Assembly: GCF_900188125.1 (NCBI RefSeq)
Contig: NZ_FZOW01000003.1
Location: 1-64,000 of the forward strand
Reading direction: 5' to 3'
Source of the DNA: Rhodococcoides kyotonense
Lineage (GTDB): Bacteria; Actinomycetota; Actinomycetes; Mycobacteriales; Mycobacteriaceae
Length of the DNA stretch: 64,000 nucleotides
Shown here in pieces: positions 50,274-64,000 of the stretch. The position numbers and the translations under genes are program-made. How positions within the stretch are numbered: the first letter of the stretch is position 1; every line of letters starts with the position of its first letter. Below the pieces are notes generated by a model, which saw nothing but the letters and a program-made list of their open reading frames with translations, had not been told where the DNA came from and did no database searches.

Positions 50274-51058
50274 CGAACGACCTTGCCTGTGATTGCGTCG
50301 GACCACAGCAGTCCTGCACAGACCAACGCCGCGCCGACGGCCAGGAGTACTCCCCCGAGACCGCCGCCCAACAGCACGTCGAGCGGTTCTGCGCCCATCA
50401 ACTGTCCAAGTAGAACTCCGATCGCGGGCAGGCACGCGAGGACTGTCGCCGTCGCCCTGGCACCTGCGAGCGAGGATGCGACGCGGTCCCGAAACCGTTT
50501 GCGTGCCAGTATGTCCGACCGCGCCGCCGACAGGAGCCCGGCGAGTCCGAGACCGTACTGGTCGGCAACTCGCCACACCGCCGCCAATCGGGTGAGTTCC
50601 GTTGCCACCGGCGAATTGTTCAGAATCAACCCAGCATGGGCGTGACCACCGAGGCGCGCCCGTCCCGACGCCTGCCCGAACGCAACGGCCGCACTTCCCC
50701 GGCCCTCCGTTGCCGCCGCCGCGCACGCGAGCGCTGGATGAGACCCGACGCCGAGTTCTCCGATGACGGTGTCGAGACCTGCTGCGAGCGAATCGATTTC
50801 ATCGCCTCGTGCACGATCTTGCATGCCCCGGCGGCGCCGCACCACGACGGTCACCGCGATCACGCTCGCCGCACACACGGCACCGACACCCCCGAGCACA
50901 TGGATCGGAATCAGTAGAGCGAACGACGCCGCGAACACGGGCGCCCTCCCCGGGTGGCGTCTCACGGATTTCGGTCTGTGACACAGCACCTTTCGTCGTC
51001 GCGCGCCGGGCAGCATCACCACCGCGACGGCGCACAGTGCGAACGCGAGAGCAGTCAT
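50270..51058 (-). CDS. TadB-like inner-membrane platform protein (Rv3658c type)
   Basis: 262 aa. Hydrophobic segments near residues 3-20 and 43-70, a cytosolic region and two C-terminal segments (VLACLPAIGVLLGQLMG and LAVGAALVCAGLLW), as in TadB. It overlaps the TadC start and the TadA fragment stop by four bases each, so it depends on tadA transcription, which the element insertion has interrupted. Confidence 0.85.
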   Translation of the reverse strand: MTALAFALCAVAVVMLPGARRRKVLCHRPKSVRRHPGRAPVFAASFALLIPIHVLGGVGAVCAASVIAVTVVVRRRRGMQDRARGDEIDSLAAGLDTVIGELGVGSHPALACAAAATEGRGSAAVAFGQASGRARLGGHAHAGLILNNSPVATELTRLAAVWRVADQYGLGLAGLLSAARSDILARKRFRDRVASSLAGARATATVLACLPAIGVLLGQLMGAEPLDVLLGGGLGGVLLAVGAALVCAGLLWSDAITGKVVR

Positions 51059-51396
51059 GCGGTCCTCCGCTCGATCAGTGCGTCGAGCATCTCTCGTCCG
51101 CGATCGACAGGACCGGAAGAACTCCACGCGGGCACGATCGTCACCCTGCCGTCGACGTCGGGAACCACGATGGCGATTTCTCGTAGCCTCCGCGTGCCGT
51201 CGTGCGATCGGTGTACGTGCAGTACCACCTGAACGGCAGCACCGAGCTGACTGTGCAGGGCGACACGATCCATACCACCCAGTGCGGCAAGCGCTTCCAA
51301 GCGCGGTGGCACTTCGGCGGGCGAATTGGCGTGAATGGTGCCTGCGCCACCGTCGTGACCGGTGTTGAGCGCAGTGAGCAGTACAAAGGTACCCAT
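51055..51396 (-). pseudogene. 3' fragment of the Tad/CpaF ATPase gene
   Basis: The last 110 residues of a TadA/CpaF-type secretion ATPase: LLTALNTGHDGGAGTIHANSP is the hallmark region containing the His box, followed by the C-terminal helices (AALGGMDRVALHSQLGAAVQVVLH). The Walker A and B motifs and the N-terminal 270 or so residues are missing. Upstream of LLTALNT the frame continues into element DNA. The 5' part should lie beyond the right window edge at attR. Confidence 0.88.
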
Positions 51397-51400
51397 TCCA
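51376..51400. other. Left junction (attL) of the integrative element
   Basis: Homology to CpaF begins at the codons for LLTALNTGHDGG (51381 leftwards); the preceding codons (F-V, 51387-51382) no longer fit the family, where an acidic residue is usual. The crossover of the serine integrase probably lies here. The exact core cannot be set without attR or an empty site. Confidence 0.6.
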
Positions 51401-51433
51401 AACAGCGCGATTTCGCTGGTCAGACGCCAAAAC

Positions 51434-51470
51434 GCCCCCGGAGTCAGGGTACGACCGACTGCACGGGGGC
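51434..51470. repeat. Inverted repeat near attL
   Basis: GCCCCCG (51434-51440) and CGGGGGC (51464-51470) about 23 bp apart, just inside the element. It may be part of the attachment region or a second terminator. Confidence 0.4.
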
Positions 51471-51476
51471 GAGAGG

Positions 51477-51502
51477 CGCGCGCTGGTTCGAATCAGCGCG
51501 CG
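51477..51502 (-). terminator. Terminator of the capsid gene
   Basis: CGCGCGCTG (51477-51485) pairs perfectly with CAGCGCGCG (51494-51502) around GTTCGAAT, four bases beyond the capsid stop codon. Confidence 0.75.
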
Positions 51503-51505
51503 GGA

Positions 51506-52606
51506 TCAGAAGATCGTCGGGCTCGTGTACTCGTCCGCAGGGGTGATCTGGAGGACAGCAGCAGCGCCGCGATGACGAACACCGACGCCGAACGCGCGAA
51601 CGTAATAGCTGTTCTGCAACGGGTAGGAGTTGTTGTCGCCGGGGATCAGCTGCAACCCGCGCAAGTTCGGCGTCTTGTGTTCGCGGAACGCGAGCGGAGC
51701 GTGAGCGCCTCCGCTTGCGACTGCTGTCACGTACCCGACAGGGACCCAGCTCGACTGCACGATGAACGCTTCGCCGTACGAGCCGACGACCTTCAATCCT
51801 TCGTAGGACGCAGGCGCTCGATCACCGATGATCGCCTGGTCCGACAGGAACGCAGGGGCATTCGCCGCCGGGATGAAGTCGTTCGCTGCCTTCCCACCGT
51901 CTGCTGACTCCTGGCCGGCGCGGAACGTCGTGATGATGTCCGCGTCGTCGGGATGGACGAGAATGACGATCTGCGAACCGAAGTCGGATCCGTAGCCGTG
52001 CTCGGTCACGTTGCGAATCAGGTAATCCAGATCCGTTGCCTCGAACTGACCGTTGGTCGTCACGTAGTGGTCGTGGCCAGGCGCGAACGACTTACCCGCG
52101 TAGCTCGGCGGCGTCGCGTCGTCTTCGCCGTCCCAGAGGGAGTAGACCGATACGTTGTTCTCGTTGATGTTGCGAGTGAGAGTGGTCGTCTTGGTCAGCA
52201 GCGCACCGAGGACGTGGCGGAAGATCAAACGGTTGTCAGCTTCGAGGACCGCCGAGTGGATCGCTTCGAGCTGGCCTGACTCGACCTCCGCTAGGAACTT
52301 CCAGGTGAAGCCCTTGCGTGCGTCCCACCACCTGAACGGGTATCCGATTTGCAGGACAGTAGGACTGACACGAACTGACTTGGGAACGCCGAACTCGGAT
52401 GCTTCCTCGAACTCTGTGTCACCTACTGACTGCTCGATCCAATCGGACGAGTTCGTTGTGTTCGCCGTGAACAGTCGCGCGACCGCTGTGCGCTGCGTGT
52501 TGAGGAGTTCGAGAGTGGTCTGAAACTCCGACCAGATCGCCGACCAGTCTTTGCCGTCGACCGTCTGGTGGAGATCCCCGACTGTGCTGTACCCGTTTGC
52601 TGCCAT
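51506..52606 (-). CDS. Phage major-capsid-like protein
   Basis: 366 aa, a normal HK97-type capsid size. The C-terminal half looks like actinophage capsid proteins: an EHKTPNLRGLQLIPG segment near residue 315, then a conserved YYVRAFGVGVRHRGAA strand. IVILVHPDDADIITTF and PVGYVTAVASGG are further strand pairs. No scaffold or protease gene is adjacent. The ATG at 52606 has GGAAGG upstream; the open frame beyond is not coding. Gene orientation is opposite to the next two genes. Identification rests on pattern recognition and should be confirmed by structure prediction. Confidence 0.7.
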   Translation of the reverse strand: MAANGYSTVGDLHQTVDGKDWSAIWSEFQTTLELLNTQRTAVARLFTANTTNSSDWIEQSVGDTEFEEASEFGVPKSVRVSPTVLQIGYPFRWWDARKGFTWKFLAEVESGQLEAIHSAVLEADNRLIFRHVLGALLTKTTTLTRNINENNVSVYSLWDGEDDATPPSYAGKSFAPGHDHYVTTNGQFEATDLDYLIRNVTEHGYGSDFGSQIVILVHPDDADIITTFRAGQESADGGKAANDFIPAANAPAFLSDQAIIGDRAPASYEGLKVVGSYGEAFIVQSSWVPVGYVTAVASGGAHAPLAFREHKTPNLRGLQLIPGDNNSYPLQNSYYVRAFGVGVRHRGAAAVLQITPADEYTSPTIF

Positions 52607-52660
52607 GACAATTCGCCTTCCGATGATATATAGGACTGCGTTCAGAATACGCGAATGTCG

Positions 52661-52707
52661 TTGCAGGCGAACAACATTGATTCTACCTAGCGATAGACTG
52701 AAGGTAG
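52661..52707 (+). promoter_or_regulatory. Promoter with overlapping inverted repeat
   Basis: TTGCAG (52661-52666), 17-bp spacer and TACCTA (52684-52689) form a plausible promoter for the two + strand genes. CTACCT (52683-52688) and AGGTAG (52702-52707) make an inverted repeat over the -10 box, a possible operator. GGGAGA precedes the ATG at 52732. Confidence 0.4.
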
Positions 52708-52731
52708 GGACAACACCAAGGGAGACAACAC

Positions 52732-53169
52732 ATGTACGCAGACGAGATCCTCGCGAATATCGAACAGTCCGAGAAGGTTTGGCCGCACAACGCGCACTTG
52801 CTGAACCATTTCCGCATCGAGGACTACGTGCGCCTCGCGCTGCGCGACCGAGACGACGCGATGATCGACGGTCAAGCGTTGATCCCGCCGATGGGTGTCG
52901 CCGCCGATCTGCACCACGACTTCGTGTCGTACCCGTTCGAGGACCCCGCGTCGATGCTCGCCAGTATGGACCTCTGCAAGGTGCGAGGTCGCGAATGCGG
53001 AGCTGCTGCGTTCGTCTGCGCGACGTGCTCGCGCTCGATCCCAGGACCACGCAAGCCGAACGACTTCGAGATCGTCTGGGTGTCCGCTCCGCCGAGCGTC
53101 GTCGGCGTCGCACTCTGCGCGACGTGCGCGCCGACTGTGATTGCCGCCTACGCGCCAGTGAGGATCTGA
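52732..53169 (+). CDS. Zinc-ribbon-like protein of the element, unknown function
   Basis: 145 aa. Two CxxC pairs, FVCATCSR near residue 95 and ALCATCAP near residue 131, suggest a zinc ribbon in the C-terminal third. The rest is acidic and unrecognised. Divergent from the capsid gene, and its stop lies two bases before the start of the HGG protein gene, so the two form an operon. It could act in packaging or regulation. Confidence 0.6.
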   Translation: MYADEILANIEQSEKVWPHNAHLLNHFRIEDYVRLALRDRDDAMIDGQALIPPMGVAADLHHDFVSYPFEDPASMLASMDLCKVRGRECGAAAFVCATCSRSIPGPRKPNDFEIVWVSAPPSVVGVALCATCAPTVIAAYAPVRI

Positions 53170-53171
53170 CG

Positions 53172-53855
53172 ATGCCCCAATGTGTCGCGACTACTGCGCA
53201 CGACAATCGTGGCAGGGGTGGCCAGCAGTGCGGACGCTACGCAGTGCGAGGGTCCGAGTTCTGCTTCGCACATGGCGGCGTCTCGAAGTCCGTCACTCCC
53301 AGCCTGATCGACACGCGGGTCGAGAACCCTGGCGTGTCGTGCACAGCGAGACGAACCGACGGACAACCCTGCGGCAACTACGCAGTCAAGGGCTCGGTCG
53401 TCTGCAAGAACCACGGAGGATTCGCGCCGCATACTCGTCTCGCTGCGTCCCAACGCATGATCGAGATGCGACTGAAAGCAATCGGAGTCGTGGACGGCAT
53501 GCTCGATGACCCTGCACTCGACCCGGCAATTCGACTCCGCGCTGCACAGATTGTTCTCGACCGATCAGGCATGGGACCAACGTCGAAGATCGAGCACGAG
53601 GTCGAGGTCAAGCCGTACGAGCAACTGCTGAAGGAAGGGACCGTCGTGCGTGACGTAGCTCTGCCTCCTGGCGAGAGCGACGCACAGCACGAGATCATCG
53701 ACGCAGAGGTCGAGGACGAGCCTGCTCCTGCTGCGCCAGCGGGTAAACCAGCCTTCGATCCCAGCAAGGTCTGGACGCACACCGAGGACGAGCAACCGCG
53801 CGAGCAGCACAACGTGGTGGCCTTCCCTCATCGACCAAATGGCACGCGTAACTGA
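53172..53855 (+). CDS. Double HGG zinc-finger protein, small-terminase-like
   Basis: 227 aa. Two copies of a C-x-C-G-x-Y-A-V-x-G-S-x-x-C-x-x-H-G-G finger are near residues 4-36 and 57-90 (YAVRGSEFCFAHGG and YAVKGSVVCKNHGG). A helical segment with DPALDPAIRLRAAQIVLDRSG follows, then an acidic, Ala/Pro-rich tail. HGG fingers with this helix pattern are found in proteins annotated as small terminase subunits in actinophages, which recognise packaging sites. The ATG at 53172 sits 2 bp after the previous stop. Confidence 0.6.
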   Translation: MPQCVATTAHDNRGRGGQQCGRYAVRGSEFCFAHGGVSKSVTPSLIDTRVENPGVSCTARRTDGQPCGNYAVKGSVVCKNHGGFAPHTRLAASQRMIEMRLKAIGVVDGMLDDPALDPAIRLRAAQIVLDRSGMGPTSKIEHEVEVKPYEQLLKEGTVVRDVALPPGESDAQHEIIDAEVEDEPAPAAPAGKPAFDPSKVWTHTEDEQPREQHNVVAFPHRPNGTRN

Positions 53856-53898
53856 CCAAAGGAGTTGCGCAGTTGCGCGTAACTTGTATGCTGTGGTT

Positions 53899-53946
53899 GA
53901 CCGGGAGGGGTTCTTCGGCCCCGCGAGTCAATCGTGACCCCCGGTC
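53899..53946 (+). ncRNA. Candidate structured RNA, three-way junction
   Basis: GACCGGG (53899-53905) pairs with CCCGGTC (53940-53946). Inside are two hairpins: GGGGTT/GGCCCC around CTTC (53907-53922) and GTCA/TGAC around ATCG (53927-53938). A promoter TTGCGC (53865-53870), 16 bp, TATGCT (53887-53892) would start transcription at about 53899. It lies between convergent genes, so a double terminator is the alternative. Confidence 0.4.
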
Positions 53947-53964
53947 TCCAAACTTCTTTCAGAT

Positions 53965-54834
53965 TCACACCACCACGGGTTCTCCCGAAGGCATCCACAT
54001 CACGCTCTGGCCTTGAGCCCCGCATTCGTACTCGTAGACTTTCCGATCAGCTGGTGGCCATGGGACAGGCTGTGCAGTCATCTCGGGGCAGTGGCCTCGC
54101 GGGAAGAGCTTGATCCCGTAGCCGTGCACCAACCCTCCTGCGCTCCGACGCAGATGCGGCCACAGCAATCGTGCGTAACCAGGATCCGAAGTGTTCATAT
54201 AACGCCCGAACGCACCAGCGACGAGATCCGCCATCTGCACTCCGACACTCTCGTCGGACGGCATGAACGATATGGACTCGATGATTCGATCGAACGGCAT
54301 ATAGAAGGAGCCCAGTCGCGTCGCCTGCCTGAGCGCTTTGTCGTCCGCCTGTTCCTCGTCAAAGAACACGAGCCCTTGGGTGCTGTGATCACCACAGTCG
54401 TGATTGATCCGCTCGAACAATGGCTTTACCGCGTGCATGATCGGCGAGGACGATCCCCATGTCTTGGACTGGTCGACCGCGATCACGATCACCTTGACCG
54501 ACGGGATCGACACCAAAGCGCGAAGGCACGAGTAGACGAGCGCACGTCGACGCGCGGCTTCGGTCAACCCAGCTCGAATCATCCAATGCGGCTTGTTGGG
54601 CTTGTTGTCCTTGCTGCGGCCAACCTGGCTGAACTTCAGCTCACTTGGGTACGACAACGGAAAGCCGTACGACACCGCGGCGTTCCTGACGACCTGCTGC
54701 ATCTTGGGCAAGTCATCTGCATCGATGCCGAATCCGCCCATGACGAAGTATGGCTTTGTCGGATCGTTGGCCCTGTCTCCAGAGTCATCGAAGTAGTACA
54801 GCCGCACGCGCCCACCTTCACCGTTACAGACCAT
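53965..54834 (-). CDS. DUF3800 protein
   Basis: 289 aa. LYYFDDSGD near the N terminus, an IAVDQSK strand with conserved Asp, FFDEEQADDKALR and the closing QMADLVAGAFGRY are the DUF3800 signatures, a family predicted to have an RNase-H-like fold with acidic active-site residues. DUF3800 genes are frequent in mobile elements and defence islands; the activity is unproven. The ATG at 54834 puts the motif near the N terminus; a GTG at 54864 is possible. Confidence 0.85.
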   Translation of the reverse strand: MVCNGEGGRVRLYYFDDSGDRANDPTKPYFVMGGFGIDADDLPKMQQVVRNAAVSYGFPLSYPSELKFSQVGRSKDNKPNKPHWMIRAGLTEAARRRALVYSCLRALVSIPSVKVIVIAVDQSKTWGSSSPIMHAVKPLFERINHDCGDHSTQGLVFFDEEQADDKALRQATRLGSFYMPFDRIIESISFMPSDESVGVQMADLVAGAFGRYMNTSDPGYARLLWPHLRRSAGGLVHGYGIKLFPRGHCPEMTAQPVPWPPADRKVYEYECGAQGQSVMWMPSGEPVVV

Positions 54835-54884
54835 TCGTTCCGGTGAAATTTCTACCACGCGCACTCGACAACAACCGTATGTCC

Positions 54885-54905
54885 TGTGGATAAACCTGTG
54901 GATAG
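54885..54905. repeat. Pair of DnaA-box-like sequences
   Basis: TGTGGATAA (54885-54893) and TGTGGATAG (54897-54905), directly repeated 12 bp apart between the DUF3800 gene and the membrane protein gene. Possible DnaA binding near the element's regulatory region. Confidence 0.4.
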
Positions 54906-54993
54906 TCCATGCGGACAGAGCACATCCGGTGCATAGTCTCCGGTGCTGTACCGGCCGATTGCGGGCAATCCAACCGTCAGGTATGACTTCTGC

Positions 54994-55404
54994 GTGGACA
55001 TACTGACAATCATTGGCACTGGGATAGTTGCATTCATTGGCAGCAGCGCTGCGACGGCATTAGTTCAGTCTTCGATCTCGAAGCGCGAACGCGAGACCAG
55101 GAGGAAGCAGGACCGCATCGCGAATTGGCAACGCGGCATTGAGGGACTGCGAGACTTCAACATCAACGACGAACACGAGCCGTACGAGGGACCCGATGCT
55201 GAACGCCACGAACTCGTGTGGAAGGACGCCCTCGACCTAGAAACAAAGGCGTGGTATCTCGACTACCAGTATGAGGCTCTGGAAGACGTCCGAAACCTGG
55301 TAGAAAATTCGCCGAGCGTATGGAAGAACAACGACCGTGCACGGGATCTGGTCAAAGCAATCATGCCGGACATCGCGCGGATACGCGAGGAATGGAAGGT
55401 CTGA
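54994..55404 (+). CDS. Small membrane-anchored protein, unknown
   Basis: About 136 aa from GTG at 54994. VDILTIIGTGIVAFIGSSAATALVQ is an N-terminal membrane segment, followed by a charged helical domain (SKRERETRRKQDR) that may be a coiled coil. A GTG at 54943 gives a longer form. Homology is not recognised. It is convergent with the methyltransferase gene, 30 bp away. Confidence 0.6.
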   Translation: MDILTIIGTGIVAFIGSSAATALVQSSISKRERETRRKQDRIANWQRGIEGLRDFNINDEHEPYEGPDAERHELVWKDALDLETKAWYLDYQYEALEDVRNLVENSPSVWKNNDRARDLVKAIMPDIARIREEWKV

Positions 55405-55434
55405 ACGCCGCGGCCGGACAGACCTTCCAGCAAC

Positions 55435-56721
55435 CTAGCTGACCTTCGAGCGCTGGGTCGCTATGTAGTCGTGGCGCAAGTGATCTTCCTGTCCGACAAA
55501 GCCTTTGAACTGGCCGAGCCGGTAAGCAACTGAGCCTTTGACATCGCCAACCTCGACCTCGAAGTCGCGTGCAAGGTGTGCAATTCGACGTTCGAGCAGA
55601 AGCGCGTCGAGACCGTGTTCGGCCAGCGACAGGATGCGTCCGGCTGTCACGAAGTCGTCAGCGTCCCGCAGAATTCGGTACACGTCATCGTGGACGTTTG
55701 CAGCAGCGAGTTCGGGCAGTTCCCGTTGCGCTGCTTGGCGATTGAACGCAGCAAGGATCGACTCGCCCACAGCCTGCGCGACTGGCGGCGGGAAGGCATT
55801 GCCGATCTGGCGGTACTTCGCAGTTTTGCCTCCTGAGAACTCCCACTCCCCCTCGGCCCAGCCCTGCAGCCGTGCGACCATCTCGATGGTCAGCTTCGGC
55901 GGGACGTTCTTCGGATGGAGCGCGCGACGAGCTGGCGCGTCGTCAGCGATCCCAAGTCCGTTCACGCCAAGCTCTGCCCACGCGCGCTTCGCACGAGTTG
56001 GACCCAGGTCAGCGCCGCCGTGTTTCTTACTGCCGCCGACCAAGGTTGGCCCAATGTCATTCGCGAGCGCGACCCACGCATCGAGGTACTGCCAGCCGTG
56101 CTCGCCCATCAGGTCGCGTAGCGCCTCGCCGACGGTGAGATCCGACTCGACAGGCTCGGGCCAGTGGAAGTATTCGGCGTCTGCCTCTTGCAGCGCAACG
56201 AGAACGAACCTGGGGCGCAGCTGCGGGACACCGAAGTCTGAGGCTTGCAGCAGTCGCCACTCAGCGACATAGCCCAGCTCCGCAAGCCGATCCAAGACGC
56301 GCTGGCGGTAAGCGGCGAAACGCGGCGTCGACAGACCTCGCACGTTCTCCAACATCAGCGCACGCGGCTTGATCTGACCAGCCAGCTCGACACCCCATGC
56401 GAACAGGTCGCGCTCGTCGGACGCGCCGAGCTGCTTACCTGCAATCGAGAACGGAGGGCAAGGTACACCTCCGGCCAGAAGGGCAACACCCTCGTAAGAC
56501 GACGGGTCCCAGACGTTGCGGTCGACTACGTCCCCCTCAGCGACCTTCCAGTCACGATTGTCGCGGAGAGTCTGGCACGCGTGACGATCCAGCTCGACAG
56601 CGAGCGCATGAGCGAATCCGGCCTTCTCAAGGCCCAACGCTTGCCCACCCGCACCTGCGCAGACTTCCACAACTTCGTACGTCGTTGCGGGTGCCTTGCG
56701 CGTCTTGCTCTTGCCGACCAT
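55435..56721 (-). CDS. DNA (cytosine-5) methyltransferase
   Basis: 428 aa. C5-methyltransferase motifs in order: EVCAGAGGQALGLEKAG (I, residues 19-35, SAM binding), GGVPCPPFS (IV, catalytic Cys 88), ENVRGL (VI, residues 125-130), QLRPRF (VIII), and KYRQIGNAFPPPVAQAVGESI (IX/X). The target-recognition region (about 190-260) differs among family members, so the methylated site is unknown. A 110-residue C-terminal extension is unusual. It is divergent from an HNH nuclease, which suggests a type II restriction-modification pair. Confidence 0.93.
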   Translation of the reverse strand: MVGKSKTRKAPATTYEVVEVCAGAGGQALGLEKAGFAHALAVELDRHACQTLRDNRDWKVAEGDVVDRNVWDPSSYEGVALLAGGVPCPPFSIAGKQLGASDERDLFAWGVELAGQIKPRALMLENVRGLSTPRFAAYRQRVLDRLAELGYVAEWRLLQASDFGVPQLRPRFVLVALQEADAEYFHWPEPVESDLTVGEALRDLMGEHGWQYLDAWVALANDIGPTLVGGSKKHGGADLGPTRAKRAWAELGVNGLGIADDAPARRALHPKNVPPKLTIEMVARLQGWAEGEWEFSGGKTAKYRQIGNAFPPPVAQAVGESILAAFNRQAAQRELPELAAANVHDDVYRILRDADDFVTAGRILSLAEHGLDALLLERRIAHLARDFEVEVGDVKGSVAYRLGQFKGFVGQEDHLRHDYIATQRSKVS

Positions 56722-56912
56722 AAGACCATCCTCCTACATCGCAGTCGTTCAGCACACCATTGGTCCGCCGATATGTTCGAGTCGCCTCGAACGGTCAACA
56801 GTAGTTGCCGCACGATTGCCGAACGATGCGCCGGTCCTTGACAGGCCGTTGCCGAACGGGCATCCTGTGATGACCGTCCGGTTTCGCATCGACTCGTTAG
56901 GACCCAAATAAC

Positions 56913-57623
56913 GTGACAGACAACGCATCCAAAGCCCCGTCCTCCGGCGCTCGTGTCGCCGCCTTCATCGCGCAGGTCGGCCTCGGAAACAAGTTCAGCA
57001 AGATGGACATGCTCGAAGCAGTCCCAGGCGTCTCGCAGGCTGATCGCCGTATGCGCGACCTGCGAGAAATGGGCTGGGTGATCGACAACTACAAGGTGAA
57101 CCCCAGCCTCAAGCCTTCCGAGTACCTACTACGCGAGATTGGGATTCGCATCGACCAGGGCGAGGCCCGCCCGAAGACGATGCGGAAGAACATCACCGGT
57201 CCGAAGCGGCGACGGATCTTCGAGCGCGACGGTCACACCTGCCAGGTCTGCGGCATTCCCGCAGGGATGGAGTACCCGAACGAGCCGGGCCGGACTGCTG
57301 TGCTGACGATTGGGCACATCATCCCGAACAACGACGGCGGATCAACTGACGACGACAACCTGCGCGCGGAGTGCACCCGCTGCGGAGACCAGGCGCGAGA
57401 CATTACGGTCGACCCGCCCAGCGCGCACTCGGTGTTCGTTCGGGCTCAGCACGTCGGCAGCCTGAAGGAGAAGAAGCGCCTCTACGGCTGGATGGCAGCA
57501 GGGCGTCGCACGTTGAATGACACCGAGCAGGTGTTCAACGATTGGGCGCGTCTGCCTCACGCACAACGTCTCGACGTCATGAACAAACTGGGGCAACAGG
57601 TCATCACGGAGATCGGAGATTAG
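56913..57623 (+). CDS. HNH endonuclease with N-terminal winged-helix-like region
   Basis: 236 aa. The HNH core is at 110-160: CxxC (110, 113), IGHIIPNNDGGSTDDDNL with His 135 and the N at 149, and CTRCGDQARD with the second CxxC (154, 157). Residues 12-75 resemble a winged helix (FSKMDMLEAVPGVSQADRRMRDLREMGW), suggesting DNA recognition. The neighbouring cytosine methyltransferase makes it the candidate restriction enzyme. GTG start at 56913 after TTAGGACC; TTGACA at about 56837 may be its -35 box. Confidence 0.88.
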   Translation: MTDNASKAPSSGARVAAFIAQVGLGNKFSKMDMLEAVPGVSQADRRMRDLREMGWVIDNYKVNPSLKPSEYLLREIGIRIDQGEARPKTMRKNITGPKRRRIFERDGHTCQVCGIPAGMEYPNEPGRTAVLTIGHIIPNNDGGSTDDDNLRAECTRCGDQARDITVDPPSAHSVFVRAQHVGSLKEKKRLYGWMAAGRRTLNDTEQVFNDWARLPHAQRLDVMNKLGQQVITEIGD

Positions 57624-58045
57624 TCCGTGTCGATGACGCCGCCCATCCATTGCAACACTTCAGCGTGTTCGCGAATAGCTTTCGCGTAGTTGCGGTTTGC
57701 GATTTCAGGCCATTCAGCCTCGGGAGGTGGGTCGAGGATCTCAGTTTGCCAAAGAAGCACGTACACGAGGTCAAACACAGAACGCTCGACCACCCCCGGC
57801 CTGTTCACGCGACACATCGTACTGACAATCTTGGTCACGTCGTTGACATTGGATCCCCGCGCTATGTACGTGGCATCGAAGAGCAGAACCCGACCAGACA
57901 CACACACGTTACGAATCTTCATCGTGGGCCGCCGCTGCGAATTGGTTCCATAATTCGATTGCAGCCAAGGTGCGCACTTTTGGGCCAAATCGTCTGTGGC
58001 GCAAGTAATCCAAAACCGCCAGTACATAGACTTTAGAGCCTTCAC
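57620..58045 (-). CDS. Hypothetical protein of the element
   Basis: 141 aa from GTG at 58045, chosen because GGAAGGAAGG lies 8 nt upstream. The C-terminal half (VSGRVLLFDATYIARG and SVFDLVYVLLWQTEILDPPPEAEW) reads like a folded domain; the N-terminal half is Trp/Cys-rich and less certain. No homology is recognised. The stop overlaps the HNH stop by four bases, so they are convergent. Confidence 0.5.
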   Translation of the reverse strand: MKALKSMYWRFWITCATDDLAQKCAPWLQSNYGTNSQRRPTMKIRNVCVSGRVLLFDATYIARGSNVNDVTKIVSTMCRVNRPGVVERSVFDLVYVLLWQTEILDPPPEAEWPEIANRNYAKAIREHAEVLQWMGGVIDTD

Positions 58046-58392
58046 GGCGGACGTGCCTTCCTTCCGAGGTCGTCGCCACGGCCCCAGAAAGAACACACGC
58101 CACCAACGACGTATGCCCTGCCTAGGACTTCGTTCGTTCGTGGCGCGGTCGCTGTCGAGCGACCACAGACAACATGGCACAGGCATCCGCTCGCCGTCAA
58201 GGACCGTAGAGCGGGGTCGTTGCGTTCCCTAGCGCTACGTGTCTAATGTTATTGGCAGTCGATCATTCGACTCCAACGCGAGCCGGTTCTCGGACCGGGG
58301 CATAGCGGATCACCACGGGCTCACAAACGTGGATTGAGATGGCCTCGCGACCTGGAAGTGAGCTTTCTGAACACCATTCAGGGAGCACCTCC
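58046..58392. other. Divergent regulatory region before the XRE operon
   Basis: 347 bp without a supported gene. It holds GAGCCGGTTCTCGGACCGG near 58285 (CCGGT/ACCGG hairpin), which may be the XRE operator, and a good ribosome-binding site (GGGAGC) before 58393. No clear promoter boxes could be fixed. Confidence 0.4.
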
Positions 58393-58656
58393 ATGTCCGA
58401 AAGTCGTTACGGCGTACAACCTCTCGCCCAAGTCCTTCAAGATCAGCGGTGGTCTTACACGCTGCTCGCAGACAAGCTCGGTGTCAGCCACCGCCAGGTA
58501 GGCAACGCAGCAAAAGGGTGGTCACGCCCGATTCCTGTTCTGCGCGAACAGTTGCCGACGATTCTTGGTGTACCGCTCGAAGAGCTGTTCACACCGGGAG
58601 CGCTCGAACCATTCGCCGCGCAGCCTGAGCACCGCCGCAAGCGTGTCAACGCATGA
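58393..58656 (+). CDS. XRE-family small DNA-binding protein
   Basis: 87 aa. A helix-turn-helix runs LAQVLQDQRWSYTLLADKLGVSHRQVGNAAKG, near residues 10-42, in the Cro/CI style. The start at 58393 has GGGAGCACC upstream. It leads the replication operon: its stop overlaps the next start as ATGA. It probably controls replication-operon copy number or lysogeny, or acts as an accessory replication factor. Confidence 0.78.
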   Translation: MSESRYGVQPLAQVLQDQRWSYTLLADKLGVSHRQVGNAAKGWSRPIPVLREQLPTILGVPLEELFTPGALEPFAAQPEHRRKRVNA

Positions 58657-58796
58657 CCGCCGACGAGTTCTCCGAACGCGCTCGCCAGTCTGCACGCAAA
58701 AGCGCTGTCGAGCAGGGAGTTCCAGAGACCGTCACGGACCCGACCGCGCTGCGACTGCTGCGCGCCTTGCTGCGAGGTGCTAATGCCAACACATGA
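58653..58796 (+). CDS. Small protein of the replication operon (47 aa)
   Basis: 47 aa, highly charged and helical (DEFSERARQSARKSAVEQG), no homology recognised. Its ATG overlaps the XRE stop (ATGA) and its end overlaps the next ORF start by 14 bases, an arrangement typical of translated, coupled genes. Confidence 0.6.
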   Translation: MTADEFSERARQSARKSAVEQGVPETVTDPTALRLLRALLRGANANT

Positions 58797-58938
58797 GAAG
58801 GGTCCCGCCAGCGGCAGCTTGGACGGGACCAATCCCAGGGGTTACAACACAGTTGATCGGCTGACCGAGCCTCTCGCAGTCGATTCTATCGGGCGTAATG
58901 CGTTGGCTGCCAGCGATGTACGGGAGTGGTCGCGATGA
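58783..58938 (+). CDS. Small protein of the replication operon (51 aa)
   Basis: 51 aa starting MPTHEKGPASGSLDG and ending VREWSR; no homology recognised. It overlaps the previous gene by 14 bases and the primase-polymerase start by four (ATGA), so its stop codon would couple translation of the large replication protein. It may be a coupling ORF and not a stable protein. Confidence 0.45.
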   Translation: MPTHEKGPASGSLDGTNPRGYNTVDRLTEPLAVDSIGRNALAASDVREWSR

Positions 58939-60962
58939 GCGCGGTTCTGGAGGAATACCTCGAACGCGGCTGGTCGATCTTCCCCTGCCACTCAATCGTT
59001 CATGGCAAGTGCTCGTGCAACAAACCCGATTGCGCCAGCCCTGGCAAACACCCACGGACGACTCACGGCGTGAAGGATGCGAGCACGGACCCCGCGCAGA
59101 TCGCCGCGTGGCATCGCGCCTATCCCAGTGCGAACTGGGCAGTGGCATGCGGTCCCATATCGAATCTGTTCGTCGTGGACGTGGACCGTAAGTCTGGCGG
59201 ATACGACTCGTGGAGTGCATGGACGCGGGATCACCCAGTACCGGACACGTTGACCGCGCTCACAGGAGGTGGAGGTAGGCACTTCTATTTCGCCCACCCC
59301 AGAGATCTCGAAGTCGGCAACAAGGTCGGATGGCTGACGGGAGTCGACGTTCGCGGAACGGGTGGGTACGTCATGCTGCCGCCGTCGAATCATCTCTCGG
59401 GAGGAACATACAGCTGGCGTAATCCCGACGAGAAGCCCGCAGTAACGCCGCTGACGCTCACGCAGAGCATCGCGCAGAACGAACGCGACGACTCGTCTGC
59501 TGAGCGCGTTGGTGGACTTCTGGAGGGCATAGCTGAGGGTGGTCGCAACGACGAGATTCATCGGCGCGCCGTCAAGGCGTTCGGCCAGCTCGGACCCGAC
59601 CAGTTCGACGCGGTGCTGCTACTGATGCAGCAGGCAGCCCGCAACAGTCCAGGCTCGACCCCGTTGACGGATCGGGAGATTCGCACAACCGTGGCGAGCG
59701 CTCAACGGTACGTCGCCTCGACGGGCGACTACATGCAGCAGTGGATGCGCGAATGGGGCAGCGGACATGTTTCGCCTGAAAGGGACGAGCTGGTCGAACG
59801 GCTCCTACGTGAGATGCGCGCCAGGGACAGGGCTAAACAGCTTTACGCAGAGGAGGTGTCGCACGCTGCGCGGTCGGAGGTCCCCGGCGTGGTGCCGCTC
59901 AGCGCGTCGGAGTTGCTGATCCTCGATGACGCTGTCGAGTACGAGTGGGTCATCCCTGGGCGTCTTCCGAAGGGCATTCGCCTGATCCTGACGGCGGACG
60001 AGGGAGCAGGCAAGAGCACGCTGCTGCGGTGGATCGCCGGTTCCGTTGCAGCGGGTCTCGACCCGTTCGATTGGGTCAACCGCCGTAGCTTCGAGCCACA
60101 GCGGGTGCTGCTCGTGGACGTCGAGAACCCGTATGACCTGTTCCAGAACAGGTTACGCGAGATGACCGAAGCATGGGAGGCCAACGGCGGTGATCGCGAC
60201 GTGATGCTCGGCAACCTGTTTTTCTTGCCGCGTTCAGACTTCGGACAGCCTCTCGCACTGGAAGATCCGCACGACGCTGAGCGGGTCCGAAAGTGGGTTG
60301 CAGAGGTCAAACCCGATCTGGTCGTTATCGGTCCGATCTACAAGCTGAGCGACCACAACGAACGTGAGGAGCCGTTCTTTCAGGCGATCACGCAACTCGT
60401 GGACGAGCTTCGAGACGAACACGGAGTGACCGTCATCATGGAAGCGCACACCCCGCACGACGCGGACACGAAGCGTCCTATCGGTTCGAGCGGTTGGAAG
60501 CGGTGGCCCGAGATGGGCTTCCATCTTGCGCGCACAGGCAGGCTGACCGAGTGGCGCGGCAACAGGTTTGGGACAGACGTGTCGTGGCCGTCGTCGTTGC
60601 GTCGCGCACCAGAAGGCAACGCTGCGTTCGACCTTGCGGTCACAGTGTCGGACAGCTCCGATCTAGGAGATGCGGCACGCGAGCACGATGACAAGGATAG
60701 GGCGCTCTTGGTGCGGTTACTCGATCTACTGTCGGAGATCGAGAACGACGGCGAGCGCACGATTGGCAAGCTGCGCACCAAGCTACGGGTCGGTGATCCC
60801 GCGTTCAAGGCTGCGCTCAGGCTCGGCGTCGAGCAGGGCGTTCTCGATGTGCGCGCGGACGGAATACGCGGAGCCAAGCGCGTTTTCGCCGATTTGAGCC
60901 GTTCTGAGGGTTCAGAACGGCTGGACGAGACGAGCCGTTCTGACGAGTCCAGAACGGCTTAG
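58935..60962 (+). CDS. Primase-polymerase/RepA-like helicase replication protein
   Basis: 675 aa. The N-terminal AEP prim-pol domain (about residues 1-175) shows FVVDVDRKSGG (metal Asp pair, 82-84), the GGGGRHFYF strand with His 116 and VDVRGTGGYVMLPPS. A linker follows; then a RepA-like hexameric helicase with Walker A TADEGAGKST (Lys 360), Walker B LLVDVEN and VVIGPIY. The C-terminal 80 residues may be a winged helix. Such fusions replicate plasmids and satellites independently of the host primase. Its end enters the AGCCGTTCTG array. Confidence 0.88.
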   Translation: MSAVLEEYLERGWSIFPCHSIVHGKCSCNKPDCASPGKHPRTTHGVKDASTDPAQIAAWHRAYPSANWAVACGPISNLFVVDVDRKSGGYDSWSAWTRDHPVPDTLTALTGGGGRHFYFAHPRDLEVGNKVGWLTGVDVRGTGGYVMLPPSNHLSGGTYSWRNPDEKPAVTPLTLTQSIAQNERDDSSAERVGGLLEGIAEGGRNDEIHRRAVKAFGQLGPDQFDAVLLLMQQAARNSPGSTPLTDREIRTTVASAQRYVASTGDYMQQWMREWGSGHVSPERDELVERLLREMRARDRAKQLYAEEVSHAARSEVPGVVPLSASELLILDDAVEYEWVIPGRLPKGIRLILTADEGAGKSTLLRWIAGSVAAGLDPFDWVNRRSFEPQRVLLVDVENPYDLFQNRLREMTEAWEANGGDRDVMLGNLFFLPRSDFGQPLALEDPHDAERVRKWVAEVKPDLVVIGPIYKLSDHNEREEPFFQAITQLVDELRDEHGVTVIMEAHTPHDADTKRPIGSSGWKRWPEMGFHLARTGRLTEWRGNRFGTDVSWPSSLRRAPEGNAAFDLAVTVSDSSDLGDAAREHDDKDRALLVRLLDLLSEIENDGERTIGKLRTKLRVGDPAFKAALRLGVEQGVLDVRADGIRGAKRVFADLSRSEGSERLDETSRSDESRTA

Positions 60963-61093
60963 GACGAAAAGCTCGTTTGCGCTGGTAGAGCCGTTCTGGA
61001 ACGGCTCGGAACGGCTGTCAGAACGGCTCACGTCGAGCCGTTCCGTTGAGCCGTTCTGGTCTGGTCTCTAGAGACCAGAACGGCAAAACGGCT
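60897..61093. repeat. AGCCGTTCTG repeat array, candidate replication origin
   Basis: The 10-mer AGCCGTTCTG occurs forward at 60897, 60933, 60989, 61049 and, shorter, 61036; its complement CAGAACGGCT occurs at 60913, 60950, 61019 and, shorter, 60999, 61009, 61076, 61087. Eleven or twelve sites in about 200 bp, in both orientations, overlap the end of the replication-protein gene. This is how iteron-type origins look. Several adjacent pairs form small hairpins. Confidence 0.7.
61060..61079. repeat. 20-bp perfect palindrome within the array
   Basis: TCTGGTCTCTAGAGACCAGA is perfectly palindromic, at the right side of the repeat array. It could be a nick or protein-binding site at the origin. Confidence 0.7.
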
Positions 61094-61104
61094 GGGACGA
61101 GAAC

Positions 61105-61221
61105 ATGAAAGACATGAGGCCAGGACCCTTGTACCTAGTTGAGGTAACCGCGATTGACGACGCCATTTCGCGACGAGAAGTCCGTCTCAAGCTCGCCCGC
61201 CCATACCGAACACCCACATAG
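61105..61221 (+). CDS. Small ORF after the repeat array (38 aa)
   Basis: 38 aa: it begins MKDMRPGP, then LYLVEVTAIDDAISRREVRL. GGGACGAG precedes the ATG. The length is short and no family is recognised, but codon use is like the neighbours. It follows the origin-like array and precedes the zinc-ribbon gene. Confidence 0.4.
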   Translation: MKDMRPGPLYLVEVTAIDDAISRREVRLKLARPYRTPT

Positions 61222-61256
61222 CCGGCCAGGTAGCCCAAACCCGAAGAGAGACAACG

Positions 61257-61466
61257 ATGATTACCTGCTTCCTCTGCAATCGGCAGTGGCCCAAGTCGAA
61301 GGCCGTTCACGTCGAGCGCAACCACTGGGCCTGTGGCGAACCGCGCCACTGCCACGAGTACACACAGTCAGTCGCAGCGCAACGGATCCTCCGCGAGGGC
61401 AGAGGTCCGCTGTACCTGACGGACCCTGCTGCGTACCGAGCTGAGCAAGCAGCGCGCAGGCTCTGA
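61257..61466 (+). CDS. Small zinc-ribbon protein (69 aa)
   Basis: 69 aa. CFLCNRQWPKSKAVHVERNHWACGEPRHC holds CxxC (residues 4 and 7) and a later Cys pair, the outline of a small zinc ribbon. GAGAGAC lies just before the ATG. Function unknown. Confidence 0.55.
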   Translation: MITCFLCNRQWPKSKAVHVERNHWACGEPRHCHEYTQSVAAQRILREGRGPLYLTDPAAYRAEQAARRL

Positions 61467-61678
61467 GTCCCGCTGTCGCAGTCGATCTCGCCCCGCGTGA
61501 AAACCAGCAACGGGCACTGTCAGATTTCGCCCACGGCGAGCTGGCCTGATCCTGTTGTGAGACACGCCATTAACGGTGGGCACACCTGATCTTGCTGCCG
61601 CGCAACGTGATCCAGTGCGCGCAACAGCCTGTGTTTGGTTTAGTACCTATGGTCTGGTCGACGGGTAGGATCTCGCCC

Positions 61679-61891
61679 ATGCCAGTTCCGTACCCAGAGC
61701 CACACCAGCTGCCCGTCGTCATGTGCGAGATCAGCGGCTGCCCTTACCGTCGGCGCTGTCCGCGTGGCGAGTACGCGCACGTCTGCCAGCAGCACCAGCG
61801 GATGTACGACATGTTCGGCGACTTCGACCGACCGCTCAACAAGAAGTCCGTCGAGCTGAGGTACACGCTGCACGGTTACCCTGCCGTCTAG
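61679..61891 (+). CDS. Small Cys/His-rich protein (70 aa)
   Basis: 70 aa from ATG at 61679, with GTAGGATC upstream; the open frame further left is not coding. CEISGCPYRRRC, then C and H (HVCQQHQ) may bind zinc. Its stop overlaps the stop of the next gene, which is on the minus strand. Function unknown. Confidence 0.55.
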   Translation: MPVPYPEPHQLPVVMCEISGCPYRRRCPRGEYAHVCQQHQRMYDMFGDFDRPLNKKSVELRYTLHGYPAV

Positions 61892-62112
61892 GCATCACCT
61901 CGGGGCGCATTGTCCGACGGCGGATCAGGCTTGCCCTTCCACGACTCGACCAGCCGCGTTGCATCAAAGGCTTTGAGTCCGTTGAACACTCGCAGGAACT
62001 TGTCTGCATCGACCCTGCAGCCGGGGCTGGCAAGCCATGCCGCGACAGCGACGCGCGTGACCTGCAGGAGAGCCGCGACGATCAGTGCGGCGATGAGATA
62101 CGAAACAGGCAC
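61888..62112 (-). CDS. Small membrane protein (74 aa)
   Basis: 74 aa. The N-terminal YLIAALIVAALLQVTRVAVAAWLA is one strong transmembrane segment; the rest is charged. No homology recognised. Convergent with the previous gene. Confidence 0.6.
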   Translation of the reverse strand: MPVSYLIAALIVAALLQVTRVAVAAWLASPGCRVDADKFLRVFNGLKAFDATRLVESWKGKPDPPSDNAPRGDA

Positions 62113-62504
62113 GGCAAGCTCCTAGGCACGGCAACCTCTCGCCTCCGGGCAACGAGTGCTGCGGACTAGTTGGGCTTATCCGGCACTGCGCGAGGGACCA
62201 TGCAGGTCCCCCATTCCAGCTTGAAACATCGCAGGCTTACGCCCCATCGATCCCGGTCAGCCAATCCAGCGCCTGAGTGTGACCAGCGCACTGCACGACT
62301 ACTACAGCCTCCCCACGGTCAGCACCGGGCGAAAAGACTGCAAGATCACAGGTCCGAAAATTTGTTCCCGGAGCGGTTCACACCGGACCCTGATCTCAGG
62401 CTCCGCGCAACGACGTTCGTGTATCCGTCACTGCGCGGAGGTTTCTTGCTGTCACCCAGGATAGCGGTCGGTCCAGAACTACGCCAGTGGCATTCGCACA
62501 TCTC
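62113..62504. other. Non-coding interval before the integrase gene end
   Basis: 392 bp with no supported gene. Near its right end, CTCCGCGCA (62401-62409) pairs perfectly with TGCGCGGAG (62432-62440), then GTTTCTT, a plausible + strand terminator. It lies beyond the 3' end of the integrase gene. No tRNA could be folded here. Confidence 0.5.
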
Positions 62505-64000
62505 CTACGCGCGCCACTTCACCTTGACGCGCGCCTCCAAGACTGCGAGCTGATGCGCGCGCTTGCGGCCGTCGAACTCGTCTGCCGTCTCGGTCTTGCG
62601 CCGCGTCAAGTTGGTCGTGACGCCCTTCGGATGGGGCTTGACCTTGACGGTCTCGATCACAGAGCTGAGCACCTGACGCTTCCACACTGCATCCTTGGTC
62701 TGCCACAGCTCGCGCAGTCGCTCGCCACGCGGGATGTTCGCGCTGACGTGCTGCGCTGCAAGCTCTGTCAGCTTCTCCTCGGCGGCTGCGCTCGCCTTCT
62801 CGATCCGCGCTTGCTCGACCTTGACGTCACGCGCCGACAGGATGCCCTCGACGTAACCTTCCTTCACCCGCGCGAGCTGCTGACCGAGCTTGTCCAACTC
62901 AGCGTGCAGCGCCTTCTCCGCGACCTGCGCGCTGTCGTCTGCGGGAGGATCCAACCGCGGCGTGTCCAGACGAGCGAATACCTGCTCACGTAGGTAGTCC
63001 TCCAACGGCTGATGCGAGATACGAACCTTGCCGCAACCGTTGTAAGGAATCTTCGAGCACACGAACGAATGGCCGCGCAGACGAGACGCCGTCATGCTGG
63101 TCAGCGTCGAACCGCAAAGCGCGCAAGACAACACGCCTGACAGCGGGTACTTACGAGCAGTGCCGAAGTTCTTGCCGCGCTCCTTACGGGCGGGATCGTT
63201 CAGCAGCGCGACGACACGCTCCCAGTCGCGAGGGTCCACAATCCCTTGCCACGCAGCGTCATACAGCGCGCCTTGATGTGAGCGCTTGCCGACCAGAGCG
63301 GGATTGGTCAGCGCGCCGCGCAGCGTCTTCGGAGTCCAGATCGAACCGCCTTCGTTGTTCTTGCGAGCGCGCGTGCGTCGACCCTGGTCGTTCCAGGACG
63401 TACAGATGCCGTACAGCGTCTCGCCTGCGAGCAGACGATCTATCGCTTCAACTAGCCAGTCTGCGTGCTCTGCGTGCCTCTTGAGGTCAGCAACCTTGCC
63501 AGTAGCAGGGTCCTTGACTGGCTCGAAACCAAACGGGCCAATGTTCCCGTGGAACTGCCCGCCTTGCGCTCGCTGCAACGCCGCACGCGAGACGCGCTCA
63601 GAGATGACGTCGGACTCCATCTCGTCGTTCGTCGCCAGGATCTGCGCGACCTGCCGCCCTGCTGCAGTGTTCAGATCGAAGCTCGGCGACATGACGTAGT
63701 GGAACTGCACGCCGTGGTCGCGAGCGAGCGCGACCAGCTCGACGGTCTGTGCCATTCGACGGGTCAGACGCGAGGTCGTATACGCGATGATCGCGTCGAA
63801 TTCCCCTGCGCGAGCTGCACGTAGAAGCTCGTCATACTGCGGACGCGGCTTCGGACGGCTACGAGTCGACGCACCAACATCGTTGTCCGAGTAGACATTC
63901 GCCACGTCGTAGCCTAGGCGCTCAGCAAGCGCACGACTATCCTCGAGCTGACGCTGCACGCCGAGCTCTTTACCTTCGCTGTCGCGGCTGATCCGGGTGT
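62505..64000 (-). CDS. Large serine integrase (N terminus cut by window edge)
   Basis: At least 497 aa; only a few residues are missing. T-R-I-S-R-D-S-E-G carries the catalytic Ser (codon 63987-63989). The resolvase domain (to about residue 145) ends in the recombinase region. A zinc ribbon follows with CALCGSTL near residue 290 and CGKVRI, then a long coiled coil (EKALHAELDKLGQQLARVKEG) as in phage large serine integrases. The zinc ribbon and coiled coil control directionality. It probably recombined attP with a site in tadA. No recombination directionality factor was identified. Confidence 0.95.
   Translation of the reverse strand, partial: TRISRDSEGKELGVQRQLEDSRALAERLGYDVANVYSDNDVGASTRSRPKPRPQYDELLRAARAGEFDAIIAYTTSRLTRRMAQTVELVALARDHGVQFHYVMSPSFDLNTAAGRQVAQILATNDEMESDVISERVSRAALQRAQGGQFHGNIGPFGFEPVKDPATGKVADLKRHAEHADWLVEAIDRLLAGETLYGICTSWNDQGRRTRARKNNEGGSIWTPKTLRGALTNPALVGKRSHQGALYDAAWQGIVDPRDWERVVALLNDPARKERGKNFGTARKYPLSGVLSCALCGSTLTSMTASRLRGHSFVCSKIPYNGCGKVRISHQPLEDYLREQVFARLDTPRLDPPADDSAQVAEKALHAELDKLGQQLARVKEGYVEGILSARDVKVEQARIEKASAAAEEKLTELAAQHVSANIPRGERLRELWQTKDAVWKRQVLSSVIETVKVKPHPKGVTTNLTRRKTETADEFDGRKRAHQLAVLEARVKVKWRA

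Follow-up and report, generated by a model that had tools for sequence, protein, structure and literature searches.

An integrative element of Rhodococcoides kyotonense with its own capsid and small terminase genes, probably a phage satellite, and its relatives across Actinomycetota

In Mycobacterium, regions that hold both an integrase gene and a gene for a major capsid protein (MCP) have been described as candidate phage-inducible chromosomal islands (candidate PICIs), phiRv1 and phiRv2 included, within a set from Mycobacteriaceae (PMC10654092; this paper and the others cited here are drawn on in excerpts). They have replication genes and a tyrosine or serine integrase and are about 9–12 kb long where sized; genes for a portal and a terminase are present in phiBN44_1 and phiMCAN_1, and one for a prohead protease in phiBN42_1 (PMC3986857). 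Capsid-forming PICIs (cf-PICIs) encode, besides a capsid protein and a small terminase (TerS), also a portal, the large terminase (TerL), a protease and connectors, and obtain their tails from a helper phage (PMC10690885). The Streptomyces satellites MulchRoom and MiniFlayer have both terminases, portal, MCP, scaffold and adapter and, in the excerpted account, no primase; their helpers are virulent (PMC10690885). Here we describe an element at the right end of a 64,000-nucleotide stretch of Rhodococcoides kyotonense DNA (bases 1–64000 of the 427,587-bp contig NZ_FZOW01000003.1, which continues past this edge; the whole stretch is called the window in the following). This element is likely to be an integrative phage satellite that has its own MCP and TerS and would take the remaining particle parts from a helper.

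With an integrase and an MCP gene in one region the element, which comes from a member of the Rhodococcus group, falls under the definition of the candidate PICIs, and it shares with these the presence of replication genes. Because of this prior art in Mycobacterium it does not constitute a new category. A sequence-only reading of the window had known of no well-described actinobacterial element with exactly this set of genes; this has to be revised, as comparable mycobacterial candidate PICIs are in print (PMC10654092). According to the excerpted descriptions the candidate PICIs are a mixture, defined by an integrase plus any capsid. In contrast, the family to which our element belongs has a single MCP type, that of phage Patience, often a TerS, no recognised portal or TerL, and extends beyond Mycobacterium. 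Judged by the definition alone, its Mycobacterium loci (for instance L070, L072 and L074; L and G numbers are our handles for loci and genomes) probably are candidate PICIs as well. For the capsid-plus-TerS family beyond Mycobacterium no description was found in the open-licence literature.

The MCP gene (51506..52606, minus strand) encodes 366 amino acids (aa) and matches PHROG 3990 (major head protein) at 1.5e-100. A structure model based on 37 sequences (predicted local distance difference test, pLDDT, 84.5; predicted template modelling score, pTM, 0.80) was compared with solved structures by Foldseek and found the capsid proteins of phages Patience (8giu, 8.8e-31, 36% identity) and Adjutor (8saj, 1.0e-29). 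The family profile matched the same two (8saj at 2.1e-129, 8giu at 9.6e-124) as the sole solved sequences at E 0.001. As modelled, the protein is an HK97-fold phage MCP closest to those of the mycobacteriophages Patience and Adjutor, and not a protein of another fold, which the earlier reading had named as an outcome that would speak against it. It aligns over its full length with phage MCPs. Furthermore, the MCP of the window and its three nearest relatives is under purifying selection (ratio of nonsynonymous to synonymous substitution rates, dN/dS, 0.09–0.29 in six out of six pairs among the window, G047, G014 and R. zopfii). A search at the DNA level found no match to the element in phages, a plasmid search yielded one distant match (21%), and viral contigs searched with the single window MCP gave ten pattern matches, none of which was confirmed.

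One segment of the capsid protein differs in length between satellites and phages. Residues 243–261 (window numbering) form a segment of 19 residues in 37 of 39 satellite loci from GTDB (18 and 20 residues in the others) and in both satellite loci from viral contigs. Among 68 phage loci from viral contigs it has 19 residues in one and 20 in six, and is longer than 19 in 67. The length of this loop may bear on shell geometry, or may in part merely reflect shared ancestry. In some relatives small genes directly follow the capsid gene (e.g. L066 11092–11750), coding for about 128 aa in 14 and about 74 aa in 11 of 50 loci. Representatives of both have no Pfam or PHROG match and are candidates for a scaffold or an accessory protein.

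The second virion-related gene, at 53172..53855 on the plus strand, encodes a TerS-like protein of 227 aa with an HGG zinc motif. It matches the PHROG terminase small subunit at 1.3e-10 over part of the protein. A profile of its 32-member family hits the solved small terminases 6w7t (6.2e-10) and 7joq (1.1e-9), followed by the unrelated CsoR as third match at 0.0011; 7joq was also the top match in a Foldseek fold search, there at a non-significant E of 0.56. The profile of the 35-member TerS cluster matches genes in two phages that share the MCP type of the element. In Rope it finds gene 1 (2e-13), which is located upstream of TerL, and in Terapin gene 92 (3.4e-7), close to the end of the genome, which starts with TerL. 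The profile also matches a gene of Margaery, a phage with a different capsid; among the 22 weak phage matches of the single TerS sequence that of Margaery was inspected; the capsid gene annotated in this phage is, at 620 codons, far longer.

Scans of the predicted proteins of the element with Pfam and PHROG recognised no portal, TerL, protease or tail family, whereas phiBN42_1 has a prohead protease beside the capsid (PMC3986857). The element shows what is expected of a phage satellite, integrase and replication genes without a recognised full virion set. That portal, large terminase and tail genes are not visible had been stated from the window alone, and it holds also after extension to the right end, 78 bp past the window, where no such gene follows. 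We extended the search to the relatives and compared the structural proteins of six Patience-like phages by tblastn with 49 capsid loci from GTDB at a threshold of 1e-5. Within the flanks covered (13 of the 49 loci are shorter than 20 kb), the MCP was found in 49 of 49 loci and any other structural query in none; the sole marginal match was a tail-terminator in L095 (0.006). As positive control the same queries were run across phages, and TerL, portal and major tail protein (MTP) were recovered in 30 of 30 pairs each, the tape measure protein in 12, the protease in 8 and the scaffold in 3. Judged by such similarity, the absence of TerL, portal and MTP from the covered flanks is firm, that of scaffold and protease weak.

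The same procedure was applied to viral contigs (the best 80 of 155 loci; L170 and L104, in which no capsid ORF (open reading frame) was recognised, were dropped, leaving 79 viral and 48 GTDB loci). In the viral set 68 of 79 capsid loci lie beside TerL, portal or MTP, eight beside other structural genes, two are satellites and one is unclassified. None of the 48 GTDB loci has TerL, portal or MTP as a neighbour; satellite recombinases are present in 39, and nine are unclassified.

Within the genus, the capsid is present in 7 of 37 genomes, the source genome included. The arrangement was also looked for in other genomes, as the sequence-only reading had advised for Rhodococcus, and does recur. 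The record titles of the 49 GTDB loci name Rhodococcus, Tsukamurella, Mycobacterium and relatives, Nocardia, Gordonia, Williamsia and Dietzia, and also Demequina, Agromyces, Microbacterium, Rathayibacter, Micromonospora and Pseudonocardia, among others; one locus (L106) is a short contig of a metagenome-assembled genome titled Rhodanobacter. Taking these loci together with the window, protein clustering found the MCP in 46 of 50 loci, a small serine recombinase in 38, a PrimPol-like protein in 36, TerS in 35, a tyrosine integrase in 28 and a large serine integrase in 8, all of which are lower bounds since several loci are contig fragments. MCP, TerS, PrimPol and integrase occur all together in 25 of the 50, fragments included. 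The core spans 5.7–12.4 kb (median 9.7, n = 36 loci). The small serine recombinase (about 219 aa) lies near the integrase in many of its loci, often beside a tyrosine integrase (L074 3830–4489, L065 18180–18809); it was not found in the window.

In a tree of 10 phage and 37 satellite capsids the two groups are separated by one branch (support 100/99). When 64 phage rows were used (58 of the 68 viral phage rows, those below 450 aa, plus six named phages), 38 of 39 satellite capsids, together with the unclassified L193, lie behind one branch with 100% support in the Shimodaira-Hasegawa-like approximate likelihood ratio test; one satellite row falls outside, and L096 is flagged as long-branched. 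Both trees are unrooted and so separate the groups without giving the satellites clade status. L193 (3526–4650) is a viral contig with a satellite-type capsid, without satellite recombinases and without TerL or portal in the part examined.

Comparison of the flanks placed the borders of the element at 51380/51381 and 64077/64078, 12,697 bp from core to core; the left end had previously been set at 51385 and is herewith corrected. The dinucleotide AG (plus strand) is common to both ends, and the left att core is 51380..51381 (CT in the orientation of tadA). The element is inserted in a gene for a tadA-type (pilus-type) ATPase, of which the host copy is split in two. The C-terminal part lies at 51055..51379 on the minus strand (positions 228–273 of the Pfam T2SSE profile), the other half right behind the integrase (L004 1914–2927, profile positions 2–228). 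In 28 of 30 genus loci compared this gene is intact at the insertion point; it is split only in the source genome and in the same-genus G047, at the same codon in both. The large serine integrase (minus strand, 62505..64000 within the window; 512 aa at the longest start, with the start codon at 64034 or 64043) matches the Pfam families Resolvase (5.7e-25), Recombinase (2e-10) and Zn ribbon (1e-5) and the PHROG integrase (7.3e-99). It had been expected to be the terminal gene although the right end was out of sight, and indeed the host gene resumes behind it. The facing arms CGCTGTTTGG and CCAAACAGCG are present in the two end sequences of the element. Such arms are expected for the attP of large serine integrases. 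The G+C content is 61.3% in the element (51381–64000) versus 64.6% in the flank (31000–51379). The split gene, with its parts at 51055–51379 and L004 2079–2927, belongs to a Tad/type II secretion-like locus, with T2SSE and two T2SSF genes close by. Since excision would restore the ATPase gene, the element might conceivably act as a switch for the pilus, with a possible effect on phage adsorption.

From the left, the gene order is MCP (minus), a 145-aa protein (plus), TerS (plus), a DUF3800 protein (minus), a small protein (plus), a C5 cytosine DNA methyltransferase (minus), an HNH endonuclease (plus), a doubtful ORF (57620–58186, minus), a small helix-turn-helix (HTH) protein (plus), a PrimPol-AAA protein (plus), an iteron array, small ORFs and the integrase. 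Integrase, replication protein with origin-like array, capsid, TerS-like protein and restriction-modification (R-M) pair had all been named from the sequence alone, and each of them is in place, the last as an R-M-like pair. The 145-aa protein beside the capsid (52732..53169) has two CxxC pairs, homologues in 4 of 50 loci including the window, and no match in PHROGs, NCBIfam or Pfam. The small HTH protein upstream of the replicase (58393..58656) is weakly assigned (Pfam HTH_3 0.031, PHROG transcriptional regulator 3.2e-4) and has homologues in 6 of 50 loci. Three small ORFs (61257–61466 and 61592–61891, plus; 61888–62112, minus) have no Pfam or PHROG match.

The replication protein (58935..60962, 675 aa) combines PF09250 (Prim-Pol, 1.4e-42) with PF13481 (AAA_25, 1.9e-26). 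At its 3' end begins the iteron array (60896..61091), a putative replication origin in which GAGCCGTTCT is repeated in both orientations. Allowing one mismatch, this iteron has 19 matches in the window, nine of them within 60896–61057; 6.3 would be expected by chance in the whole 64 kb, and none of 100 shuffles reached 19. Some relatives have repeats of other sequence at the same place: of 11 loci, seven (window, L060, L061, L090, L097, L072, L074; counts for the relatives are given without a chance control) show 9-mers that are repeated at least four times at the PrimPol 3' end, and no 9-mer occurs three times or more in L063, L066, L075 and L103. The G047 element, which shares 95% identity with the window in the capsid and 91% in the integrase, has a P4-family primase of 474 aa (L051 5080–6504; 2.9e-81, D5_N), and PrimPol was not seen in its examined parts. 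By its gene content, the replication module of the G047 element appears to be swapped.

The cargo of the window (53965–57623) consists of the DUF3800 protein (53965..54834; PF12686 at 3.9e-17, scanned from a longer start at 54864), a small protein without Pfam or PHROG match (54943..55404), the C5 methylase (55435..56721; PF00145 9.6e-60, PADLOC DruM2 2.3e-200 and MTase_II 1e-177) and the HNH endonuclease (56913..57623; PF01844 1.4e-7, PADLOC REase_II 1.1e-13), a possible restriction partner. A weak match of the latter to a PHROG terminase small subunit (1.5e-5) is outscored by many HNH families. The methylase and the HNH gene are adjacent and divergent, possibly an R-M-like pair of candidate type II. 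Of five proteins from relatives that were submitted to PADLOC, three matched a methylase or candidate defence model: a methylase-like protein of 834 aa encoded in G047 (MTase_II 2e-269), the methylase of G007 (1.2e-89) and, in G013, a PDC-M02B candidate (7.6e-119). The 304-aa protein of G014 and the 474-aa protein of G047 had no match. Positions of such genes in relatives are L014 4945–7449, L053 12154–13341 and L054 13372–14583. As these genes differ from one relative to the next, defence cargo may travel with the family.

Candidate helpers are phages with the same MCP family. Among six Patience-like records, with genomes of 56–71 kb, TerL (or "terminase") and portal are annotated in all six and a scaffold or maturation protease in four. 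The source genome has no match to two portal families and one TerL family (PF04860, PF05133, PF03354). This suggests that a Patience-like phage arriving by infection, perhaps a virulent one, probably serves as helper. In none of 48 GTDB loci does this capsid type lie beside TerL, which likewise suggests that such phages rarely lysogenise and would fit a virulent helper. The TerL of the P3.1 type had no match in 37 genus genomes, in a run without positive control, and the annotations of Terapin, where one gene bears the name "resolvase", and of bases 6999–56311 of Kurnik contain no integrase.

Excision, replication, helper identity, mixed particles, shell size and cargo function we infer as follows. 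At rest the element would sit in the tadA gene, from which the integrase would excise it upon infection by a suitable helper. This helper would most likely be a non-lysogenising siphovirus from the group with Patience-like capsids. PrimPol and the iteron origin would then replicate the excised element, its Patience-like MCP would build the shell, and its TerS would direct a borrowed motor to the satellite DNA. Portal, TerL, protease, minor capsid proteins, connectors, tail and probably scaffold would come from the helper, and the R-M pair would defend the carrier. Patience-like shells have T=7 geometry (PMC10635136). If volume scales with T^1.5 and 66 kb are taken as the T=7 load, there would be room for about 28 kb in a shell of T=4 and for about 18 kb in one of T=3. 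Since the 12.7 kb of the element fall short of either value, a small shell, one that is under-filled, or several copies per shell may be considered.

A satellite is preferred over a remnant because of the recurring gene content, the purifying selection and the clean insertion point. A decayed prophage that kept one capsid gene by chance would account for the small size and the missing head genes. It is nevertheless highly improbable, given overlapping gene sets in dozens of genomes from many genera with different integrases, the intact borders, the selection on the capsid and the lack of a TerL or portal match in all 49 GTDB loci, within the flanks covered. An encapsulin or other compartment shares the HK97 fold, and such proteins (8wol, 6x8m) stand in the same list of fold matches, at about 5e-8 and 13–14% identity as against 8.8e-31 and 36% for phage Patience, so that this assignment is scarcely conceivable. 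It is unlikely, though it deserves mention, that the lone MCP mainly poisons helper capsid assembly as a dominant negative and protects the host together with the R-M pair, while the element itself spreads in normal-sized helper heads or by some other means. The single recognisable shell part and the defence-like cargo speak for this, and a block of virion assembly is a known defence (PMC10884400); but a pure defence island would not need the TerS, replicase and integrase that are retained in many loci, and the capsid is alignable to phage MCPs from end to end. Quite unlikely, too, are several copies of satellite DNA in helper-size heads with co-assembled satellite MCP and no small shell. Five units of 12.7 kb amount to 63.5 kb, and T=7 capsids (PMC10635136) surround genomes of 56–71 kb; in that case, however, the satellite would have no need for an MCP of its own, whereas 38 of 39 satellite capsids lie behind one branch.

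Several observations weigh against the satellite interpretation. The control recovered scaffold and protease in so few pairs that either may have escaped the similarity search, and some unassigned gene may be a scaffold. The 153 phage records with MCP relatives, all below 60% identity, contain no close capsid; the highest identity among those listed is 42%, and none of them bears the name of a Rhodococcus phage. With the TerS profile no match at 1e-10 was obtained in the 68 phage loci from viral contigs, nor any match in the examined parts of Kurnik, P3.1, RikSengupta and Wollypog, and therefore the link between TerS and a helper rests on two phages; moreover, no TerS was found in 15 of 50 loci. 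The GTDB scan was seeded with eight satellite and two phage capsids and may favour satellites. Finally, the length of the E-loop was rejected as a mark of satellites: residues 39–69 comprise 31–33 positions in 37 of 37 satellites and 30 in 10 of 10 phages, yet the satellite length also occurs in 23 of 68 phage loci from viral contigs.

As a satellite with its own capsid and TerS and with packaging and tail from a helper, the element had already been proposed; borders, gene content, fold and distribution agree with this, in a narrower sense than the likeness to cf-PICIs suggested. If true, this would give a function to small capsid-bearing elements of Actinomycetota otherwise read as prophage remnants and names a phage group as candidate helper. 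If a swapped MCP alone, with the portal and scaffold of the helper, sets shell size or specificity, the system would be a clean test case for the control of HK97-fold assembly, for which capsid structures from this MCP family (8giu, 8saj) are already available.

Like phiRv1, in which a prohead protease lies beside the capsid, the element has a serine integrase. The supposed working in the manner of capsid-forming satellites stands as far as the own MCP and TerS are concerned; cf-PICIs also bring portal, TerL, protease and connectors (PMC10690885), none of which was recognised in the element, protease and connectors being weakly controlled in the related loci. The MCP has only a distant likeness to the capsid of cf-PICI EcCI2 (9gyi; 11% identity, 1.2e-8 in Foldseek). 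With MulchRoom and MiniFlayer the element shares an own capsid and the phylum Actinomycetota, and MulchRoom has an integrase and an HTH gene (PMC10690885); it differs from these two in that a primase is present and neither a portal nor TerL was recognised. The Patience-like phages (Patience, Adjutor, Rope, Terapin, Nocardia phage P3.1 and Micrococcus phage Kurnik) have the same MCP family, and Rope and Terapin a TerS homologue; unlike the element, they carry TerL, portal and tails. Tentatively, with chances that we put near even, all this may point to a phylum-wide class of actinobacterial satellites that replace two helper parts only, the shell protein and the packaging selector, and whose old capsid lineage parasitises virulent Patience-like phages across genera. 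This would be a third strategy beside the re-sizing of helper capsids, as in P4, Staphylococcus aureus pathogenicity islands (SaPI) and phage-inducible chromosomal island-like elements (PLE), and the building of whole heads, as in cf-PICIs.

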